Shown one piece after another: positions 19,082 through 28,659 of a stretch of DNA of 64,000 nt. The stretch comes from Pleurocapsa minor GSE-CHR-MK 17-07R. Its GTDB lineage: Bacteria > Chloroflexota > Anaerolineae > Aggregatilineales > Phototrophicaceae. The translations under genes were made by a program, and so were the position numbers. The stretch covers positions 434,001-498,000 of the forward strand of contig JAHHHY010000001.1 of NCBI GenBank assembly GCA_019359125.1, written 5' to 3'. The notes below the pieces were generated by a model. It was not told the origin of the DNA. It saw only the letters and a program-made list of their open reading frames with translations, and did no database searches. How positions within the stretch are numbered: position 1 is the first letter of the stretch; each line of letters begins with the position of its first letter.

Positions 19082-20680
19082 ATGTATCGTATTGTAATTG
19101 CAGCACTGGCGTTACTTCTGACCACCGGATGCGCCCCTCAGTCGCTGGGGGTATCCGCCCAGAACCAGCCATCTATGATCTATGGGCTGACGCTTCAGCC
19201 TTCCGGGTTTGATCCCCATATTAATGCCTCATCCGAGCTGGGGATTCCCCTGCGCTCGGTCTACGATACGCTGGTGTATCGCAATCCTGAGACAAATGCG
19301 TTTGTCCCCGGCCTGGCCACCAGCTGGCAGTTGGCCCCTGATGGGCTGTCGATGACGTTTACGCTGCGGCAGGGCGTCACCTTTCATGATGGCACACCCT
19401 TCAACGCGCAGGCAGTAGCTGCCAATCTGGATCGCATCACCGCCCCTGAAAGCGCGTCGCAGAAAGCCATTTTTCTGCTTGGCCCGTATGTGGGTTACGA
19501 CATCGTCGATGATTATACCATCCAGCTTCGTCTGTCTGAAGCGTACAGCCCGCTGCTGGATGGGCTGAGCCAGGTGTATCTGGGCATGGCCAGCCCGACC
19601 GCGTTCCAGGAATATGGCCTGGAGCGCTATCAACTGCATCAGGTGGGCACCGGCCCATATCAGTTTGTGGATTATCTGCCCGGCGACACCCTGACGTTGC
19701 GGCGTAACGATGCTTATGCCTGGGCGCCGGAATTCATGCAGCCCAATGTGTTGCGCCCGGAAGTAATCGAGTTTCGGTTCTTTGAAGACCCGCCCAGTCG
19801 GGCATTGGCCCTACAAAACGGGGATGTGCAGGTGGTAGGTGAGCTGCTGCCGACGGATGCGCGTAATCTGGGAGCCAGCAGCGAAGTGCGTGTGCTGCCC
19901 GTGGGCATCGCTGGACAGCCGCTGCAATTCCTGATGAACACAACGCGCTACCCAACCAACGACGAGCGCGTGCGCCAGGCCATTCTGTTCGCCACCAATC
20001 GCGAGGCAATTATTGATGGCGTGTTCCAGCGCTTTTCGCCGGTTGCCTGGGGTCCATTCTCTGCCACTACCCAGTACTATTCGCAGACCGTGGTCGGTCG
20101 GTATGCCTATGATATCAACCAGGCGAATCTGCTGCTGGATGCTGCTGGACTGGTGGACAACGACGGGAACGGCTACCGCGACTTTGGTGGAGCGGATATT
20201 GAAGTGGATGTGATTGTGCCCCCGTGGGGACTGATCCCTCAGGTAGCGCAATATCTGGAGCAGCAGTGGCGCGATGTGGGCCTGCGCGCGGTGTTGCAGC
20301 AGGTGCCCAGCAGGGCAGGGCTGGCCGACGCGATTGTGTCGGGAGAATACAACCTGGTCGCCAATTACGAATTTGGCGTGGATCCGGCATTTATCGCGCG
20401 CTACTACACGAGCGGTGCACCAAACAATTACACGGGTTTCGCTGATACAGCCATGGATACCATGTTTTCGCAGGCACAGCAGCAATATGACGATGCTGCG
20501 CGGCAAAGCCTGTATACGCAAGCGCAGAATCTGATTATGGACCGCGCGCTGGTGCTGCCTATCCGTGACTATGTCAACCTGAACGGCTTCCGCAGCGAGG
20601 TCGGCGGCCTGGCCTACGACGCTTATGGGTGGTTCCCAGAACTGGCAGAACTGAGTCTGACAGAGGGCATTCAGCCATAG
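19082..20680 (+). CDS. ABC transporter substrate-binding lipoprotein, peptide/nickel (family 5) type
   Basis: A 532-residue protein. The lipobox LTTGC places the lipidated cysteine at residue 17. The family 5 binding domain opens with LTLQPSGFDPHINASSELGIP, and the characteristic LRQGVTFHDGTPFNAQAV appears near residue 95. It captures oligopeptides or similar ligands at the cell surface and hands them to the two permeases directly downstream (2-base gap, then a 4-base overlap). Ligand not predictable. Confidence 0.9.
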   Translation: MYRIVIAALALLLTTGCAPQSLGVSAQNQPSMIYGLTLQPSGFDPHINASSELGIPLRSVYDTLVYRNPETNAFVPGLATSWQLAPDGLSMTFTLRQGVTFHDGTPFNAQAVAANLDRITAPESASQKAIFLLGPYVGYDIVDDYTIQLRLSEAYSPLLDGLSQVYLGMASPTAFQEYGLERYQLHQVGTGPYQFVDYLPGDTLTLRRNDAYAWAPEFMQPNVLRPEVIEFRFFEDPPSRALALQNGDVQVVGELLPTDARNLGASSEVRVLPVGIAGQPLQFLMNTTRYPTNDERVRQAILFATNREAIIDGVFQRFSPVAWGPFSATTQYYSQTVVGRYAYDINQANLLLDAAGLVDNDGNGYRDFGGADIEVDVIVPPWGLIPQVAQYLEQQWRDVGLRAVLQQVPSRAGLADAIVSGEYNLVANYEFGVDPAFIARYYTSGAPNNYTGFADTAMDTMFSQAQQQYDDAARQSLYTQAQNLIMDRALVLPIRDYVNLNGFRSEVGGLAYDAYGWFPELAELSLTEGIQP

Positions 20681-20682
20681 CC

Positions 20683-21591
20683 ATGTGGATCGCCCGGCGG
20701 CTGGGTGGCATGCTCGTCATTGGGTGGCTGGCTGTCACCCTGGGCTTCATGCTGCTGCGTGTCGCGCCGACCGATGGGCTAACTGCTGTCTTGCAGGACA
20801 GCGGGGCATCGCCGGCCCTGATCGCTGAGCGTATAGCAGCCAATGGCCTGAATGAGCCGCTGATTATGCAGTATATGCGCTATCTGGGCAGTCTGGCGCG
20901 TGGCGACCTGGGTGTATCCCTGCTGAGTGGTATGCCTGTGGGCGATCTGCTGCTGCCCGCAGCTGGGCGTACACTGACGCTGGCCGCTGCCGCGTTCGTG
21001 CTGGCTGTGCCGCTGGGCATGCTGATCGGCGGCGTCGCTGACCGTGGACGCCGATTTGCGAGCAGTGCCGCACGTGTATTTATCACACTTTCACTGGCAA
21101 TTCCGTCGTTTGGGATCGGCTACATGCTGCTGCTGGCCGTGACGTTTTTGCTGCCCGGCACGCGCATCTTGTCTTCGGATCAGGTGCTGGTTCCGGCGCT
21201 TGCTCTGGCTATCAGCGCGGCGGGCAGCATCGCGAAAATTGTCGCCGCCGCGCTGGCCGAGACGCGTCATGCACAGTTCGTCGTCACAGCGCGTGGCATG
21301 GGGTATTCAGAGGCAGGACTGCTCCGGATTCAGATCCTGCCAACCGTGGCATCGCGGATTCTGCCGACGATCGGGCTACAGGCCCTGTTTCTGATCGGCG
21401 GCACTGTGGTGACCGAGAGTATTTTTGCGCGTCCAGGCATTGGCCGCCTGCTGGTGGACAGCGTGCTGAGACGTGATTATGTGATTGTGCAGGGAATTGT
21501 GTTATGGGCCGCTTCCTGCGCACTGCTGATCCAGCTCGTGGTCGATCTCGCTGTAGCAGGGCTTGATCCACGCGTGCGTGAAAGCAAATGA
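20683..21591 (+). CDS. ABC transporter permease, DppB/OppB type
   Basis: A 302-residue protein from the ATG at 20683, two bases after the binding-protein gene; the longer frame upstream overlaps that gene and is discarded. DppB hallmarks: WIARRLGGMLVIGWLAVTLG at the N-terminus, the membrane-core segment AGRTLTLAAAAFVLAVPLGM, and the coupling region TARGMGYSEAGLLRIQILP that contacts the ATPase. It forms half of the membrane channel. Confidence 0.92.
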   Translation: MWIARRLGGMLVIGWLAVTLGFMLLRVAPTDGLTAVLQDSGASPALIAERIAANGLNEPLIMQYMRYLGSLARGDLGVSLLSGMPVGDLLLPAAGRTLTLAAAAFVLAVPLGMLIGGVADRGRRFASSAARVFITLSLAIPSFGIGYMLLLAVTFLLPGTRILSSDQVLVPALALAISAAGSIAKIVAAALAETRHAQFVVTARGMGYSEAGLLRIQILPTVASRILPTIGLQALFLIGGTVVTESIFARPGIGRLLVDSVLRRDYVIVQGIVLWAASCALLIQLVVDLAVAGLDPRVRESK

Positions 21592-22364
21592 AGAAATTCC
21601 GTGCTCATCCGCTGCTGTTGTTTGCCCTGATAGTGGCTGTTGTGCTATTGCTGCCACTGCTGGCGGCTTATGATCCGATGCGGATGGGCAATGCACCCTA
21701 TCTGGCGCCGACGCTTGCGCATCCGGCAGGGACGGACAGCTTCGGCAGAGATGTGTTAAGCCGTGTGCTGGCTGGGATGCAGCAGACTGCGCTGATGGGC
21801 CTTGCTTCCGTGGTTACAGCGGTCGCGATGGGTGGTTTGCTGAGCGTTATCGCGCAGATGAAAGCAATCGCAGCAATTGTGCAGGCTGTGGTGATGGCCG
21901 GCCTGTCAATTCCTCCATTGATCCTGATGCTGGCAATCATTACGTGGCTGGGACAATCATCGCTGGCTGCCGCAGCCGCGGTAGGGATCGCCTACAGTTT
22001 TGGCGTCGCCCGTATCCTGATCAATGCTGCGGCAGCGGAAGGCCAGGAGCCGCATGTGGAGGCGGCTTATGCGCTGGGAGCATCACGCTGGCACATGCTG
22101 ATACAGCATGTGCTGCCGGGCCTGACGGGGCTGCTGGCTTCGTACGCTGTCCTGGTATTCGCCTATTCAGTGACCCAGCTGGCAGGGCTGAGCTTTCTTG
22201 GCGTTACAGGGACGCCAGGGGCGCCGGAACTGGGGCTGATGATGGCAGAGAGCCGTTACACGATTCGGGACGCGCCATGGGCTGGTATAGCGCCAGCACT
22301 GGCTGTAATAGCATTGATCGTGATAGCCAATCGGTTGTCAGATGAGATGACGCGGCGCAGCTAA
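21588..22364 (+). CDS. ABC transporter permease, DppC/OppC type
   Basis: A 258-residue protein whose ATG overlaps the upstream stop (ATGA). It has the DppC N-terminal signature GTDSFGRDVLSRVLAGMQ and the ATPase-coupling loop EAAYALGASRWHMLIQHVLP. It completes the membrane part of the importer. No ATPase gene follows: the next gene is convergent and overlaps its stop by a few bases. The energising subunits must be encoded elsewhere. Confidence 0.92.
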   Translation: MKKFRAHPLLLFALIVAVVLLLPLLAAYDPMRMGNAPYLAPTLAHPAGTDSFGRDVLSRVLAGMQQTALMGLASVVTAVAMGGLLSVIAQMKAIAAIVQAVVMAGLSIPPLILMLAIITWLGQSSLAAAAAVGIAYSFGVARILINAAAAEGQEPHVEAAYALGASRWHMLIQHVLPGLTGLLASYAVLVFAYSVTQLAGLSFLGVTGTPGAPELGLMMAESRYTIRDAPWAGIAPALAVIALIVIANRLSDEMTRRS

Positions 22365-23149
22365 TCCTGGCGAATCAGCGTGCCTTCACTGGATTGGCCC
22401 AGTAGTGTGCGCGTCAGCAGGCCCGGTTGAAGTCCATCCATGATCCGAATCTTCAGGCGCGGTTGTGCGGATACCAGCGCAAGCATGTCCTTGACTTTGG
22501 TTTCCATGCCGCCGGTCACATCGACTCCGCCGGAGCTGCCCAACGCTGCTTCCACTTCTGCCAGGCGGGAAGGGGTGATTTCGCTGATGACTGCGCCAGA
22601 CTGGTCATAGACGCCGCGGACTTCGCCCAGCAGCAGCACCTGTTCGACAGGCAGATGAGCCGCGAGATGGATGAACACAGTCTCGGTGGACAGGATAGTG
22701 CCTCCGCGTATGTCGTCGAATCCTACATCGCCGTGCACCAGCGGGACTATTCCATGTTCGAGCGCGCGTTTAATGGGTTCAATCGCCATATGCTGAATGC
22801 GTATGTCGGCTGCAATGGCCGACGCGGAGGGTGAGAACTTCATCGCGGGAAGCCCGGCCGTGCGCAGTGAATTCAGCACGCGATAGTTTAGCTCTCCGGC
22901 AGCATGGGCCACTTCAGCAAAGCCAAGCCATCCCGCACTGTCTGATACGCCTGTGGCGGTGCCATATTTCTTTGCCGCGACATGGCCAAACGAGCCGCTG
23001 CCGTGCCCGACAACGACCCGCAGCGATGGGTCTGCGCTCACTGCCAGCCGAATTTCATCCGCAAGCCGTGCCATCACTTCGGCGCGGAATGAACTGGCCA
23101 CCTGCTTGTCAGTTATCAGCGATCCGCCGAGCTTTATAAAAATCAGCAT
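22361..23149 (-). CDS. ipk: isopentenyl phosphate kinase
   Basis: A 262-residue amino-acid-kinase-fold protein. The nucleotide motif FIKLGGSLIT and the IPK motif GHGSGSFGHVAAKKYG, with the catalytic histidine in GSFGH, are clear; GGVDVTGGMETKVKDML follows. It phosphorylates isopentenyl phosphate to isopentenyl diphosphate. It is last in a three-gene minus-strand operon with mevalonate kinase (15-base gap) and a UbiA-family enzyme, facing a decarboxylase. This is the layout expected for the alternative mevalonate pathway. Confidence 0.93.
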   Translation of the reverse strand: MLIFIKLGGSLITDKQVASSFRAEVMARLADEIRLAVSADPSLRVVVGHGSGSFGHVAAKKYGTATGVSDSAGWLGFAEVAHAAGELNYRVLNSLRTAGLPAMKFSPSASAIAADIRIQHMAIEPIKRALEHGIVPLVHGDVGFDDIRGGTILSTETVFIHLAAHLPVEQVLLLGEVRGVYDQSGAVISEITPSRLAEVEAALGSSGGVDVTGGMETKVKDMLALVSAQPRLKIRIMDGLQPGLLTRTLLGQSSEGTLIRQD

Positions 23150-23164
23150 AGTTTCCCCGATGTA

Positions 23165-24103
23165 CTACGAACCGCTCACGGTCGTTTCAATAACGCGCAC
23201 AGCGCCTGCCTGCCTGAGCGCAGCGGCAACAGATGAGGCCTGTTCCGGCGTCACCAGTGCAATCATATTGCCGCCCATCCCGCCCCCAGACAGTTTTGCG
23301 CCCAGTGCCCCGGCCGACCGGGCCGCAGTGACCAGCCTGTCCAGCTCCGGCGATGAGACTTCTAGCTGTTGCAGCAGCGCGTGATTTTCGTCCATGGCTG
23401 TTCCCAGCGCGCTGCTTTCCCCGCTTTCAATTGCTGTCCGTGCACGCTCGACAAGCGCAGCGACAGCATCCATGCGCGTCTCACTGAGGGCAGGATTGGC
23501 ATCGTGCAATTCACGCACATGCCCGACAGACACGCGCGTGGATGCGGCCACACCGGTATCGGCAATCAGCAATGTGAATGGGTTGTGGATAGAGAGCAGC
23601 TCCAGCGGCATGCCACGTTTGAAGTAAACGGGCTTCTCAAATGCGATCACAGTATTGTCGATGCCGCTGGGCGTGCCGTGATAGAGCGTCTCAGTTTTAT
23701 AGACGAGCTGGTTGATGTGGTCGGTGCTGAGAGTCAGGCCGAGATGCGTCGTGATAACCCGCACAATCGCAGTAGAAATGGCCGCTCCGCTGCCGAGTCC
23801 GCTGGCGATTGGGATTTTTGAGCTGATGACGAGTCGCCCGCCAAACAATGGCTGGCCGAGCGCATGCAGGGTTTCGCGTACGATGACGACCAGCGCCTGG
23901 GCCGAACGTGCAAGGATATCGGGAGTTACCAGGATGGTTTCGCCCAGGTCATCGGCGACCAGCTCAAGCACGGGTGTGTTGTTGGACTCCAGCGTGGCGG
24001 TGACGCGAAGGGAGGATACCGGCACAGCCAGCGCCGGCCGGTCATAGACGACCGCATGTTCCCCCAGAAGGATGCATTTTGCACACGCGGTAGCTGTGGT
24101 CAT
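23165..24103 (-). CDS. mvk: mevalonate kinase
   Basis: A 312-residue GHMP kinase. Family motifs: KCILLGEHAVVYDRPALAVP at the N-terminus, the ATP loop PIASGLGSGAAIS, the catalytic-aspartate region HGTPSGIDNTVI, and the C-terminal GALGAKLSGGGMGGNMIAL. It converts mevalonate to 5-phosphomevalonate. It is 8 bases downstream of the phosphoribosyltransferase gene and 15 bases upstream of ipk. Confidence 0.95.
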   Translation of the reverse strand: MTTATACAKCILLGEHAVVYDRPALAVPVSSLRVTATLESNNTPVLELVADDLGETILVTPDILARSAQALVVIVRETLHALGQPLFGGRLVISSKIPIASGLGSGAAISTAIVRVITTHLGLTLSTDHINQLVYKTETLYHGTPSGIDNTVIAFEKPVYFKRGMPLELLSIHNPFTLLIADTGVAASTRVSVGHVRELHDANPALSETRMDAVAALVERARTAIESGESSALGTAMDENHALLQQLEVSSPELDRLVTAARSAGALGAKLSGGGMGGNMIALVTPEQASSVAAALRQAGAVRVIETTVSGS

Positions 24104-24111
24104 CGTACTCG

Positions 24112-25005
24112 TCAGGCGGCCAGTCGCGGGATATACAGGATGGCGATAAAAGTGAGGCCCCAGAGCAGAATGGCGATCTGGATGGGCCGGTCTTTCAGCA
24201 GAACTTCATCCGGCGCACTGCCATCGCCCTTGACATGCATCAGGTAGAGATAACGGAAGACGCCGTAAACCACGAACGGCACGGTCAGCAGGCCGAGGTT
24301 GGTGGTTTGCAGCATTTCGCTGGGTTCTTCAATTGTGTACAGCAGATAGCCGATGAGCGTGCCGGTCATGACCATACGCAGCATGTCGTCCAGCAGGGCG
24401 AGATTATACGAGCGCAGTGTCACACGCACAGAACCTGCCTGTTCAGCCAGCAGCAGCAGCTCCTGACGGCGCTTGCCAATGATGAGAAACAAGGCCAGCA
24501 GGGCGGTGATGGCATACAGCCACGGGGAAAACTGTGCCACCTGAATCACCACGACGCCGGCTGCCACACGCAGGATGAAGCCTGCCGCGACTGCCAGCAC
24601 ATCCACAATCACGATGTGCTTCAGCACGAAAGAGTAGGCGAGCTGAAGCAGCAGATAGCCGCCCAGCACAAACGCAAAGGGCACGCTGAAGCTGAGCGCA
24701 GCGATGAGGCAGATCAGGGGCAGCACGACAGCCACAGCAATTGCCAGCGGAATGGGAAGGTTTCCTGCGGCAAGCGGGCGGAATTTCTTCTTTGGATGCT
24801 GGCGGTCACTCTCGATGTCCACCAGATCGTTGATGATGTAAACCGAGCTGGATATCAGGCATAATAGGATGAACGCCAGCACGACACGCAGCAGGGACTC
24901 CACCTGAAAAAGCTGTCCGTCAAAGACAAGCCCGGCGAAAACGATTGCGTTTTTCGTCCATTGACGCGGACGCATGGTTTTTAGCAGACCGATGAGTGGG
25001 CGCAA
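24112..25005 (-). CDS. UbiA-family prenyltransferase, decaprenyl-phosphate phosphoribosyltransferase type
   Basis: A 297-residue protein with about eight or nine membrane segments. The sequence MRPRQWTKNAIVFAGLVFDG and the aspartate motif NDLVDIESDRQHPKKKFRPL match 5-phosphoribosyl-1-diphosphate:polyprenyl-phosphate transferases, which make polyprenyl-phosphoryl-ribose, the arabinose donor precursor in actinobacteria. A quinone or chlorophyll prenyltransferase is possible but those motifs differ. Its place at the head of the isoprenoid operon suggests it uses a polyprenyl product of that pathway. Confidence 0.8.
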   Translation of the reverse strand: MRPLIGLLKTMRPRQWTKNAIVFAGLVFDGQLFQVESLLRVVLAFILLCLISSSVYIINDLVDIESDRQHPKKKFRPLAAGNLPIPLAIAVAVVLPLICLIAALSFSVPFAFVLGGYLLLQLAYSFVLKHIVIVDVLAVAAGFILRVAAGVVVIQVAQFSPWLYAITALLALFLIIGKRRQELLLLAEQAGSVRVTLRSYNLALLDDMLRMVMTGTLIGYLLYTIEEPSEMLQTTNLGLLTVPFVVYGVFRYLYLMHVKGDGSAPDEVLLKDRPIQIAILLWGLTFIAILYIPRLAA

Positions 25006-25088
25006 AAAGGCTCAACCTTCAGGTAATTTCTCAGTACATCATGGCGATTATAACAACGTGACCTTGAAAGAATAGGGTAGGCCAGGAA

Positions 25089-26063
25089 ATGATGACCCGT
25101 ACTGCAACTGCTATTGCACATCCGAACATCGCCTTTATCAAGTATTGGGGAAATACCAATGATGCGCTGCGTCTGCCCGCCAATGCATCGCTGAGCATGA
25201 ATCTGGATGGCCTGCAGGCGGAAACAACGCTGACCTGGGCCGATGACCTGTCTGCAGATACTCTGGTGCTGAATGATGCAGAGCAAAGTGGTGAGCCGCT
25301 GCAACGCGTTGTGCGGCAGCTGGACATCATGCGCAAGCGGCTGGGCCTGACGGCCCACGCGCAGGTCGTTTCGAAGAATAATTTCCCCACGGGTGCCGGA
25401 GTCGCATCGTCTGCGGCCGCATTTGCTGCGCTGACGGTTGCCGCGGCAGGGGCATCTGGCCAGGTGCTGAGCGAACAGGAACTCACCACACTGGCTCGCC
25501 TTGGGTCAGGCTCTGCTTCTCGTTCAGTTCCTGCTGGCTTTGTAGAATGGTTCGCTGGTGACTCGCATGAGGCGTCGTATGCCGAAAGTTTCGCGCAGCC
25601 GTCACACTGGCCGCTGGTCGATGTGATCGCCGTGATCAGCGATGGGCACAAACGCGTGGGCAGCACCGCTGGCCACAAATCCGCCCAGACAAGTATTTTT
25701 CAGGAAGCACGCGTTGCAGATGCCGCGGCGCGTTTTGCCGCCTGTCGCCGGGCTGTAGTTGAGCGCGACTTCAACACGTTTGCAGAAGTGGTGGAGCGTG
25801 ATAGTAACCTGATGCATGCAGTGATGATGACGAGCGTGCCGCCTCTGTTTTATTGGGAGCCGCAGTCGCTGGCCGTGATGTCGTGGGTGCGTGACCGGCG
25901 CGCCGATGGCCTGAGCGTGTGCTACACGCTGGATGCTGGCCCGAATGTGCACTGTCTATGCCTTGAAAAGGATGCCGAAGCTGTAAGAAGTGGGCTGGTG
26001 GGGATGTCTGGACTGAAGCAGGTCTATATGGCAGCAGTGGGTGGGCCAGCGCATCTGGTCTGA
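25089..26063 (+). CDS. mvaD: mevalonate-diphosphate-decarboxylase-like enzyme, probably phosphomevalonate decarboxylase
   Basis: A 324-residue GHMP-fold decarboxylase. The N-terminal motif reads NIAFIKYWGN, whereas diphosphate-using decarboxylases normally have KYWGK. Other active-site parts are intact: the ATP loop PTGAGVASSAAAFAAL, GSGSASRSVPAGFVEW (arginine) and the catalytic aspartate in CYTLDAGPNVHCL. Related enzymes in Roseiflexus and haloarchaea decarboxylate 5-phosphomevalonate to isopentenyl phosphate, the ipk substrate. With ipk and mvk next door and no phosphomevalonate kinase, that activity is the best inference. Confidence 0.85.
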   Translation: MMTRTATAIAHPNIAFIKYWGNTNDALRLPANASLSMNLDGLQAETTLTWADDLSADTLVLNDAEQSGEPLQRVVRQLDIMRKRLGLTAHAQVVSKNNFPTGAGVASSAAAFAALTVAAAGASGQVLSEQELTTLARLGSGSASRSVPAGFVEWFAGDSHEASYAESFAQPSHWPLVDVIAVISDGHKRVGSTAGHKSAQTSIFQEARVADAAARFAACRRAVVERDFNTFAEVVERDSNLMHAVMMTSVPPLFYWEPQSLAVMSWVRDRRADGLSVCYTLDAGPNVHCLCLEKDAEAVRSGLVGMSGLKQVYMAAVGGPAHLV

Positions 26064-26166
26064 CGCCGCACACTTTCCTTTGTCGTTAATCTCCCATGTC
26101 ATCAACGTGTCCTATAATCTGAGGAATACGATGATGCGTGTTGTGCATTTAGTTAAGTAGAAGGCC

Positions 26167-27630
26167 ATGAACATGTTTGATATTTCTGCCGCCAGCAATC
26201 CACTGCTGGTGATCGCCGCGTTCGTCATTGTGCTGATTCCAGCTGTGATCATTCACGAGCTTGGGCATTTTATTGCTGCCAAGCTCGTCGGTATCACGAT
26301 TCTGGAATTCGGCGTGGGCATGCCACCGCGCATGATCAAACTGGGACGCTGGCGCGAGACGGACATCACGCTGAACTGGCTGCCACTGGGTGGTTTTGTC
26401 CGCCCGCTGGGCGAAGACATGGTGCGCCAGATGGGCGATGAAGCGCTCTCGGATGACCGCAGTGAGGCTGTCGCACGAGGGATAGCAAAACCGATGTCCG
26501 TGGGCGAGGCAAAGCCACTGGGGCGAATCTTCTTCATGGCGGCTGGTGCCCTGGCGAATTTCATCAGCGCGCTGCTGCTGTTTGTGATTATCGGCCTGAC
26601 GGGCCTGCCCCAGGCTGTCGGCGCACGCGTGCAGCTGGTGTATACGGCGGCAGATTCGCCTGTGACGGCGATGGGCCTGCAACCGGGCGATACGATTGAA
26701 TCGGTCAATGGCGAGTATTTTGCCGACGAAGATGCGCTGTTGGCAGCTATTCTCGCCAACGCCGATGCCGGATTCACCCTGGGTATCATCCGTAATGAGG
26801 CCGCCCAGACGCTGGAAGTTGAGGCTGGCGCGGTAGCGCTGGATCCCGAGACGGCGGCGTGGTCCAGCCATCCTCTGATCAGCGGCATCGCCGATATGTC
26901 ACCTGCTGCACTGGCGGGTATTATGCCGGGCGATCTGGTCACCGCGCTGAATGGGGAGCCCATCGCCAATTTTGAGGAATTGCAGGCAGCGACGCGCGCT
27001 AATCTGGACCAGGAAGTGACGCTGACACTGCTGCGCGACGGTGAAGAAGTGACTGTCTCGCTGGTGCCGCGTGCGAATCCCCCGCAGGGCGAGGGCTCGA
27101 TGGGCATCGGCATTAATTCCGGCGCTTCATCAACCGGACTGGGCACAGCGATCCTTGCTGTGGCTCCGGTACAGCAGCTGGTGCCGCTGACCATTGGCGA
27201 GTCCATTCAGTATGGTGCTGAGCGCGTCGTTGGCGTGATTCGCCAGATTGTGGAAGTGCCCGTCAATCTGATCACCGCGCTGGTAAACCAACAGCCGGTG
27301 GGCGATGAAATGCGCGTGACCAGCGTGCTGGGTATTTCGCAGGTGGGTGGCGTGCTCTTGCAGGAAAGCATCGAGCAGCGCCAGCCGACCATCATCCTGG
27401 AGTATATTGCGCTGCTGAGCCTGGCGCTGGGCATCACGAATCTGCTGCCGATTCCAGCACTGGACGGCGGACGTATCCTGTTTGTGCTGATCGAAATTGT
27501 GCGTGGCAGGCCGATGGCCCCGGAAAGGGAAGGGATGGTTCACCTGGTGGGCCTGGCCCTGCTGCTGAGCCTGATGGTGGTGGTTGTCATCAATGACATC
27601 GCTAACCCTATTGTCAATATCCTACGCTAG
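26167..27630 (+). CDS. rseP: site-2 (M50) intramembrane metalloprotease with two PDZ domains, RseP-like
   Basis: A 487-residue protein. The zinc motif IIHELGHFIAAK (HExxH) lies in the first membrane segment. Two PDZ domains occupy the middle (ADSPVTAMGLQPGDTIESVN and MSPAALAGIMPGDLVTALNG). The third zinc ligand sits in LLPIPALDGGRILFVLIEIV near the C-terminus. It cuts membrane-embedded substrates such as anti-sigma factors. It is followed after 9 bases by a HEAT-repeat gene and probably shares its transcript. Confidence 0.94.
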   Translation: MNMFDISAASNPLLVIAAFVIVLIPAVIIHELGHFIAAKLVGITILEFGVGMPPRMIKLGRWRETDITLNWLPLGGFVRPLGEDMVRQMGDEALSDDRSEAVARGIAKPMSVGEAKPLGRIFFMAAGALANFISALLLFVIIGLTGLPQAVGARVQLVYTAADSPVTAMGLQPGDTIESVNGEYFADEDALLAAILANADAGFTLGIIRNEAAQTLEVEAGAVALDPETAAWSSHPLISGIADMSPAALAGIMPGDLVTALNGEPIANFEELQAATRANLDQEVTLTLLRDGEEVTVSLVPRANPPQGEGSMGIGINSGASSTGLGTAILAVAPVQQLVPLTIGESIQYGAERVVGVIRQIVEVPVNLITALVNQQPVGDEMRVTSVLGISQVGGVLLQESIEQRQPTIILEYIALLSLALGITNLLPIPALDGGRILFVLIEIVRGRPMAPEREGMVHLVGLALLLSLMVVVVINDIANPIVNILR

Positions 27631-27639
27631 GACAAGTGC

Positions 27640-28659
27640 ATGACCGAATATCAAGACGATAACGACTTCAACGAGCTGCTGGACGAGGCGGAAAGCACCG
27701 CTGAAAAGCGGCCTGAACGCCCCCCTGTCGAGCAGACCATCGCGCTGCTGCTGGAAGGTGTCGAGACCACCAACGCGCCGCTGACCTACGGATTGTCCGG
27801 CTTGTCCCGGACTGAGATGGACAGCATCGCAGAAGTGTGGGTGACGATCGACAGTGAGTATCGCGCCAGGCTGGTGCAAAGCCTGGTGGATGTGGCGGAA
27901 ACCAACGCGGACCTGGATTACACGGGTATCGCCTATATCGCGCTGTTTGACGATGCCGATGAGAGCGTGATTTCCGCTATTGAAATGCTGTGGGAAAGCG
28001 ACTCGATGGATGTGATGGATCGCCTGATTGAGCTTGCGAATCAGCATCCGTCGGTGAATGTGCGCGCCGCTGCTTCTGGTGCGCTGGGGCGATTCATACT
28101 TCAGGGTGAGCTGGGCGGGCTGGACGAAAATCAGGTGCTGCCCGCGCTCAATACAGCGTATGCGCTTTGGAGTGATGCATCCCAGCCGGCTGAAGTGCGC
28201 CGTCGTGCGCTGGAAGCCTTCTCAAATTCCAGCGATGACCGCGTGAATCCCGCGATTCGGCAGGCGTATCGCAGTGATGACGAACGCCTGCAATTGGGCG
28301 CAGTATTTGCCATGGGGCGCAGCTGTGACATCACCTGGTCTGATGCTGTACTCAAAGAACTGAAGGGCGACGATCCGGAATTCCAGTATGAGGCAGCACG
28401 TGCTGCCGGTGAACTGCTGATTGAAGAGGCCGTCCCGCTGCTGTCTGAAATGGCGCTGGGCCGGGATGTGGATATCCGTGACATCGCCATCTGGTCGCTG
28501 GGTGAAATTGGCGGACGAGAGGCGCTGCGCGTGCTGAATACGATTGCTGATGCGGCACGTGGCAGGACGGACACAGATCTGCTTGAGGCAGTTGAGGATG
28601 CCATTGCATCGGCGACCCTGGGCGGTAATGATCTGTTCATGATGCGCTTTGACGACTGA
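27640..28659 (+). CDS. HEAT-repeat protein
   Basis: A 339-residue acidic soluble protein. Helical repeats of about 30-35 residues run through most of it, for example HPSVNVRAAASGALGRFI, QPAEVRRRALEAFSNSS and DVDIRDIAIWSLGEIGGREA. Such repeats build a curved scaffold for protein binding; no enzymatic motif is seen. It lies directly behind the M50 protease gene, and a terminator follows it. Confidence 0.8.
   Translation: MTEYQDDNDFNELLDEAESTAEKRPERPPVEQTIALLLEGVETTNAPLTYGLSGLSRTEMDSIAEVWVTIDSEYRARLVQSLVDVAETNADLDYTGIAYIALFDDADESVISAIEMLWESDSMDVMDRLIELANQHPSVNVRAAASGALGRFILQGELGGLDENQVLPALNTAYALWSDASQPAEVRRRALEAFSNSSDDRVNPAIRQAYRSDDERLQLGAVFAMGRSCDITWSDAVLKELKGDDPEFQYEAARAAGELLIEEAVPLLSEMALGRDVDIRDIAIWSLGEIGGREALRVLNTIADAARGRTDTDLLEAVEDAIASATLGGNDLFMMRFDD

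Follow-up and report, generated by a model that had tools for sequence, protein, structure and literature searches.

A mevalonate kinase, decarboxylase and isopentenyl phosphate kinase gene cluster of the alternative mevalonate pathway type in a Phototrophicaceae genome (Chloroflexota)

The genes described here lie in a 64,000-nucleotide stretch of DNA (the window; positions 434,001 to 498,000 of contig JAHHHY010000001.1, assembly GCA_019359125.1), which was deposited as Pleurocapsa minor GSE-CHR-MK 17-07R and is placed by GTDB in the Phototrophicaceae of the phylum Chloroflexota. A first-pass annotation, made from the sequence alone, had described three open reading frames between 22361 and 26063, for isopentenyl phosphate kinase (IPK), mevalonate kinase (MK) and a decarboxylase resembling diphosphomevalonate decarboxylase (MDD). 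All three lie at these positions and exceed the curated cut-offs of their families, and the identity of each gene is clear. The three do sit together, but a fourth gene among them, for a UbiA-family transferase, had been overlooked. The cluster consists of:

22361..23149, minus strand, IPK (NF040647, 166 bits, cut-off 120)
23165..24103, minus strand, MK (TIGR00549, 244 bits, cut-off 163)
24112..25005, minus strand, UbiA-family transferase, decaprenyl-phosphate phosphoribosyltransferase-like (Pfam/NCBIfam; TTG start as listed)
25006..25088, no strand, divergent intergenic region of 83 bp between the UbiA gene and the decarboxylase gene (sequence)
25089..26063, plus strand, MDD-like decarboxylase, assigned to the phosphomevalonate decarboxylases (MPD) of Anaerolinea type (TIGR01240, 264.1 bits, cut-off 171.35; nearest structure 6n0x)

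The IPK also carries the motif GHGSGSFGH when aligned to solved IPKs, including His56, the signature histidine of IPKs.

The cluster very probably represents the lower half of an alternative mevalonate pathway of the type seen in haloarchaea and Chloroflexota. MK would convert mevalonate to (R)-mevalonate 5-phosphate, after which the MDD-like enzyme would use ATP to phosphorylate the 3-hydroxyl and then eliminate phosphate and CO2, giving isopentenyl phosphate. IPK would add the second phosphate to form isopentenyl diphosphate (IPP), and a type 2 IPP isomerase encoded elsewhere would convert this to dimethylallyl diphosphate. The first-pass annotation had expected the same logic, from mevalonate phosphate through isopentenyl phosphate to the diphosphate, and it is supported by the gene content, by the absence of a phosphomevalonate kinase (PMK) and by the presence of the full remaining pathway.

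At E<=0.001 the GHMP-kinase N-domain is matched four times in the genome of the window (4.85 Mb, 98% complete, 23 contigs). Two of the matches are MK and the decarboxylase; the others are a homoserine kinase (NF002288, 302 bits) and a galactokinase (TIGR00131, 361 bits). The same domain model is over its cut-off in 14/14 control genomes. Searched against the whole genome, the PMK model TIGR01220 gave as its sole match a 24.9-bit echo on MK, and the animal-type PMK model PF04275 a sole match of 12.4 bits with stops inside it, both under cut-off. As both models stay below cut-off in all 14 controls, the absence of PMK rests mainly on the GHMP inventory, and a hidden PMK was rejected chiefly because all four GHMP matches are assigned. 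The cluster had been annotated as lacking PMK, with a search of the genome proposed as one half of a test, and that half has come out negative. Upstream enzymes are encoded, with an archaeal-type HMG-CoA synthase (TIGR00748, 517 bits) adjoining HMG-CoA reductase (TIGR00532, 392 bits), as is the isomerase IDI2 (407 bits). MK, MPD and IPK are thus accompanied by HMG-CoA synthase, HMG-CoA reductase and IPP isomerase, and by no PMK that could be found.

The nearest solved relative of the window decarboxylase is 6n0x (E 6.7e-109; 56% identity over 318 residues), the phosphomevalonate decarboxylase of Anaerolinea thermophila, which binds mevalonate 5-phosphate (PMC9254496). In its own numbering the window enzyme has KYWGN at residues 18-22, in place of KYWGK as had been noted at first pass, together with Asn22, Arg28, Ser140, Ser192, His196 and the catalytic Asp282. 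In Staphylococcus aureus numbering, used from here on, these positions read Tyr18, Asn21, Arg27, Ser139, Ser141, Ser192, His196 and Asp283, and every position compared is the same in 6n0x. The two enzymes share the Asn/Arg/Ser/Ser/His specificity residues and differ in sequence divergence only, the window enzyme being known from its sequence. Thomas et al. 2019 reportedly concerns the A. thermophila enzyme. The second-best entry, 6n0z, differs from 6n0x in the printed alignment at two positions only, having Lys21 and Met196 as S. aureus MDD does, and is presumably an engineered variant. This difference leads us to equate His196 with the 'PMD histidine' of PMC11052028. The window enzyme shows the Anaerolinea-type pattern: a residue that is not Lys after KYWG, then Arg27, His196 and the catalytic Asp283. 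'Type' here means residues together with pairwise identity. Because no PMK was found, the monophosphate would be the physiological substrate, and the active-site residues shared with A. thermophila MPD point in the same direction.

The first-pass annotation had drawn its comparison with Roseiflexus and haloarchaea. The pathway logic is indeed shared with Roseiflexus castenholzii, in which an MPD is paired with IPK (Dellas et al., 2013, PMC3857490) and PMK is likewise lacking, but its decarboxylase is of another kind. The R. castenholzii enzyme has Leu, Arg, Ala and Thr at the corresponding positions and is described as not using the diphosphate (PMC3857490), with Leu21, Ala139 and Thr192 in the Staphylococcus epidermidis numbering of Table 4 of that paper; the window enzyme has Asn, Ser and Ser. 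In ten aligned KYHGL (Roseiflexus-type) sequences from the phylum, positions 139 and 192 are Ala and Thr. Their identity to the window enzyme is 28-35%, below the 39% that it shows with S. aureus MDD. Roseiflexus was therefore rejected as a direct model on specificity residues and identity, which fit A. thermophila instead. Bacterial MDDs (S. aureus 2hk2, and 5v2l, which we take to be the Enterococcus faecalis enzyme) belong to the same family, with 39-40% identity and the catalytic Asp kept. They differ in that their Lys21 and Met196 are Asn and His in the window enzyme, and in that no PMK was found to feed the latter.

Distribution was studied in a phylum sample of 251 genomes, in which counts for DXR are at E<=1e-9 unless stated. 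IPK is over its cut-off in 56/251 genomes (weakest 127.6 bits, next match 68.6), and TIGR01240 exceeds 90 bits in 52/251 (cut-off passed in 34), each of these 52 being among the 56 with IPK. These 56 comprise 52 genomes with an MDD-like decarboxylase and four with AcnX and UbiD instead, so that every IPK genome of this sample also has either MPD or AcnX/UbiD. DXR is found in 0/56 of the IPK genomes versus 188/195 of the others. At any strength DXR is matched in 200 genomes, each time over the Pfam cut-off. A group of twelve weak matches (E 4.5e-7 to 9.7e-4) is taken for distant homologues; they fall in G005, G018, G028, G046, G080, G112, G120, G152, G160, G224, G052 and G238, all of which have IPK and MPD.

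Forty-four of the 52 decarboxylases were aligned, 34 of Anaerolinea type (window included) and 10 of the 18 of Roseiflexus type, whose loci were recovered by profile search; the other 8 of the 18 were not fetched. Four loci were dropped from the alignment: L017, which is the window's own locus, the duplicates L101 (of L011) and L102 (of L028), and L094, which is a fragment. Lys21 occurs in 0/44 aligned sequences, and the Anaerolinea-type rows have Asn21 in 23/34 and His196 in 30/34. Among named relatives, taken as the best 80 of 578 matches, 78 could be read (L228 and L229 have no usable frame), with Asn21 in 75/78 and His196 in 74/78. The phylum sample and the named relatives overlap (e.g. 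G232/L208) and are not independent sets. KYWGN is neither a chance occurrence nor rare. Nearly all of the best 80 carry names of the phylum (Chloroflexi or Chloroflexota), of Anaerolineae or of a genus or order within these, and one is a Levybacteria metagenome-assembled genome (MAG), in which a relative of the window decarboxylase (L229 10001-10948, 43% identity) stands beside MK-like and HMG-CoA synthase-like genes. A subtype with KYWGQ, KYWGM or KYWGV and Thr27 (L031-L035, L086-L088) was seen in eight genomes outside the class of the window, 8/8 with IPK. The end of contig C46 of G192 (L094) holds two oppositely oriented MPD fragments, possibly an assembly artefact, and a near-full-length copy lies at another contig's end (L020).

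Several points weigh against the alternative pathway, and some of them would suit a classical one, in which the enzyme acts as an MDD on diphosphate supplied by a missed or promiscuous kinase, and IPK merely salvages isopentenyl phosphate. The window enzyme passes the cut-off of TIGR01240, a diphosphomevalonate decarboxylase model, keeps Ser139 and Ser192 as in MDD, and falls far under the cut-off of the haloarchaeal MPD (MvaD) model NF040704 (174.9 versus 475 bits), although homology is evident and the same reaction is expected of the haloarchaeal phosphomevalonate decarboxylase. The silence of TIGR01220 and PF04275 is a weak test, since no control genome passed either, and with 98% completeness and 23 contigs a PMK could sit in a gap. 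Chloroflexota enzymes of the window's pattern, in which the lysine of diphosphomevalonate decarboxylase (DMD) is missing and the histidine of phosphomevalonate decarboxylase (PMD) is kept, are reported as DMDs with additional PMD activity (Zhu et al., PMC11052028). As such enzymes are credited with both activities, the window enzyme would be expected to accept the diphosphate too in vitro, and activity of that kind would be no argument against the alternative pathway. TIGR01240 alone cannot separate MPD from MDD, because it is passed in 34 genomes in which no PMK exceeds the cut-off. Against the classical pathway stand the four GHMP matches, each with its own assignment, the absence of the MDD lysine throughout the aligned phylum sequences, the co-occurrence of decarboxylase and IPK in 52/52 genomes, and the failure of any of the 251 genomes to pass the PMK cut-off (best 39.8 bits), with a model that also failed in the controls (0/14). 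We consider the classical pathway improbable here.

A second alternative is the modified mevalonate pathway of archaea, in which AcnX (phosphomevalonate dehydratase, PMDh) dehydrates and a UbiD-type enzyme decarboxylates mevalonate phosphate, so that the MDD-like gene would be idle. This route has MK, IPK, mevalonate 5-phosphate and isopentenyl phosphate in common with the pathway proposed above, and differs in the two enzymes that replace MPD. Relatives do have them, since the four genomes with IPK and without MPD carry AcnX and a UbiD relative, and the pathway is in print for Chloroflexota (Kanno et al., 2024, as cited in PMC13001223). Profile searches of the present assembly of the window's genome gave no match to the large or small AcnX subunits, and a search with the UbiD decarboxylase of the phylum genome G136 found no relative there, which makes this explanation very improbable indeed. 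Supply of isoprenoids by the methylerythritol phosphate pathway, with the cluster serving a side product, would agree with the DXR of 188/251 phylum genomes, but the window's genome, in which the profile search gave no match to DXR, has a full mevalonate gene set, and we give this possibility hardly any credence.

The alternative mevalonate pathway remains the preferred reading. The neighbours of the cluster are:

19082..22364, plus strand, ABC transporter set, flank on the IPK side (Pfam/NCBIfam)
26167..27630, plus strand, RseP-type site-2 metalloprotease, conserved neighbour downstream of MPD (Pfam/NCBIfam)
27640..28659, plus strand, HEAT-repeat protein, conserved next neighbour after RseP (Pfam)

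The UbiA, MK and IPK genes are separated by 8 bp (UbiA to MK) and 15 bp (MK to IPK), and because these gaps are so short they are presumed to form an operon with UbiA first, from which MPD diverges across the 83 bp. The single promoter-like match on the plus strand of 25006-25088 overlaps the MPD start codon, and is given little weight for that reason. The UbiA gene is over the equivalog cut-offs of NF008978 (257 bits, cut-off 207) and NF008977 (256 bits, cut-off 234) and below that of NF008976 (184 versus 474 bits); the enzyme, whose gene heads the MK-IPK string, probably uses a downstream polyprenyl phosphate. Within 1.5-kb flanks of 30 IPK loci, UbiA occurs in 11/30 and MK in 7/30, the window being counted in both. 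A UbiA relative was also seen by IPK in genomes with Roseiflexus-type MPD (L048, L061, L062, L066).

Gene order in the named loci was counted among the best 80 of 578, and the counts are lower bounds owing to contig ends and the threshold. IPK-MK-UbiA divergent from MPD is found at 14 loci, one of which (L166) has 2.9 kb before MPD. The full arrangement of the window is present in a Phototrophicales MAG (L155), and the only other sampled genome of the window's family (L101) has the same gene order. RseP lies downstream of MPD at 62 loci and the HEAT-repeat gene is present at 59. The order MPD-RseP-HEAT (25089-28659 in the window) is kept in most named loci, with no obvious functional link among the three.

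The four IPK genomes without MPD are G011, G136, G144 and G184, all with AcnX and MK over cut-off; G011 belongs to another class and is 8% contaminated. The relatives of the G136 UbiD in G011, G144 and G184 are 51-53% identical to it. G136, which has neither an MPD nor a DXR match, shows the order UbiD-AcnX-swivel-IPK-RseP-HEAT (L103 3507-9445), so that the module fills the slot before RseP and HEAT that is held by MPD in the window. No RseP was seen beside the module genes in the fetched stretches of G011, G144 and G184, and the shared slot is therefore a feature of 1/4 genomes.

Three further genomes have both MPD and the UbiD-AcnX-swivel module, namely G072 (L131 4237-10690), G200 (L132/L133) and G232 (L134/L102). 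The MPD of G072 is still next to RseP and divergent from UbiD-AcnX-swivel, an arrangement repeated at the named locus L180 (82-85% identity), and the module lies elsewhere in G200 and G232. His196 is lost from the MPDs of all three (Ser, Met and Asn), versus 1/31 of the other Anaerolinea-type genomes (G168). The association of His loss with the module has a Fisher p of 0.0007, uncorrected for relatedness, and G168 shares a genus label with G200. The named loci without His196, among the 78 read, are L180, L192, L208 and L222; a UbiD relative lies near L222, and none was found in the 9.5 kb of L192.

AcnX matches were typed against 7cnr, the type IIb AcnX and putative phosphomevalonate dehydratase of Thermococcus kodakarensis, and against cis-3-hydroxyproline dehydratase, for the 26/35 matches over cut-off, the remaining 9 not being in IPK genomes. 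This typing rejects their treatment as one class. The AcnX proteins of G011, G136, G184, G072, G200 and G232 are 42-47% identical to 7cnr (303-350 bits) and score 1.4-1.7 times lower against the hydroxyproline enzyme; for scale, the assayed archaeal enzyme of Aeropyrum pernix is 38% identical to 7cnr (PMC10040528). Those of G224, G005, G089 and G144-C162 tend towards the hydroxyproline enzyme, and a third set, in genomes without IPK (e.g. G153, G093), has ratios up to 1.5 with identities of just 30-36%. The AcnX beside UbiD in G144 (C127; 33%, 173 bits) resembles this third set, and we are less sure of its function.

It is possible, though on balance doubtful, that in this class of Chloroflexota the position before rseP is an exchange point, occupied by either MPD or UbiD-AcnX-swivel-IPK, and that where the module has been gained and MPD kept, the monophosphate-linked His has been lost as MPD shifted to another role; the evidence for the slot comes from a single genome (G136), and that for the His loss from three genomes plus a single named locus. 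The archaeal route was called unique to archaea in 2023 (PMC10040528). A 2026 review (PMC13001223) cites Kanno et al. (2024) for the archaeal pathway in Candidatus Promineifilum breve (Chloroflexota); the AcnX/UbiD module is therefore known in the phylum, and its description as a new discovery was rejected. Neither a shared slot nor the His loss was seen in the excerpts of open-licence full texts, which were searched by pathway words and not for these two points. Mevalonate pathway genes are also reported in some Black Sea bacteria (PMC11129491), which is of no further use here.

The analysis confirms a real cluster, ordinary for its class, with the genes for an already known, shortened route to the isoprenoid building block in which CO2 leaves before the second phosphate is attached. 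The pathway is settled by gene content for one more lineage, and such genes pass the standard diphosphomevalonate decarboxylase model although their genomes yielded no kinase to feed it. What deserves following up is the set of relatives in which the decarboxylation step is exchanged or doubled. If the exchange proposal is true, living relatives would show stages in the replacement of an ATP-dependent variant of the pathway by an ATP-saving one, and G072, G200 and G232, which hold both routes, are where the order of the replacement events could be tested.

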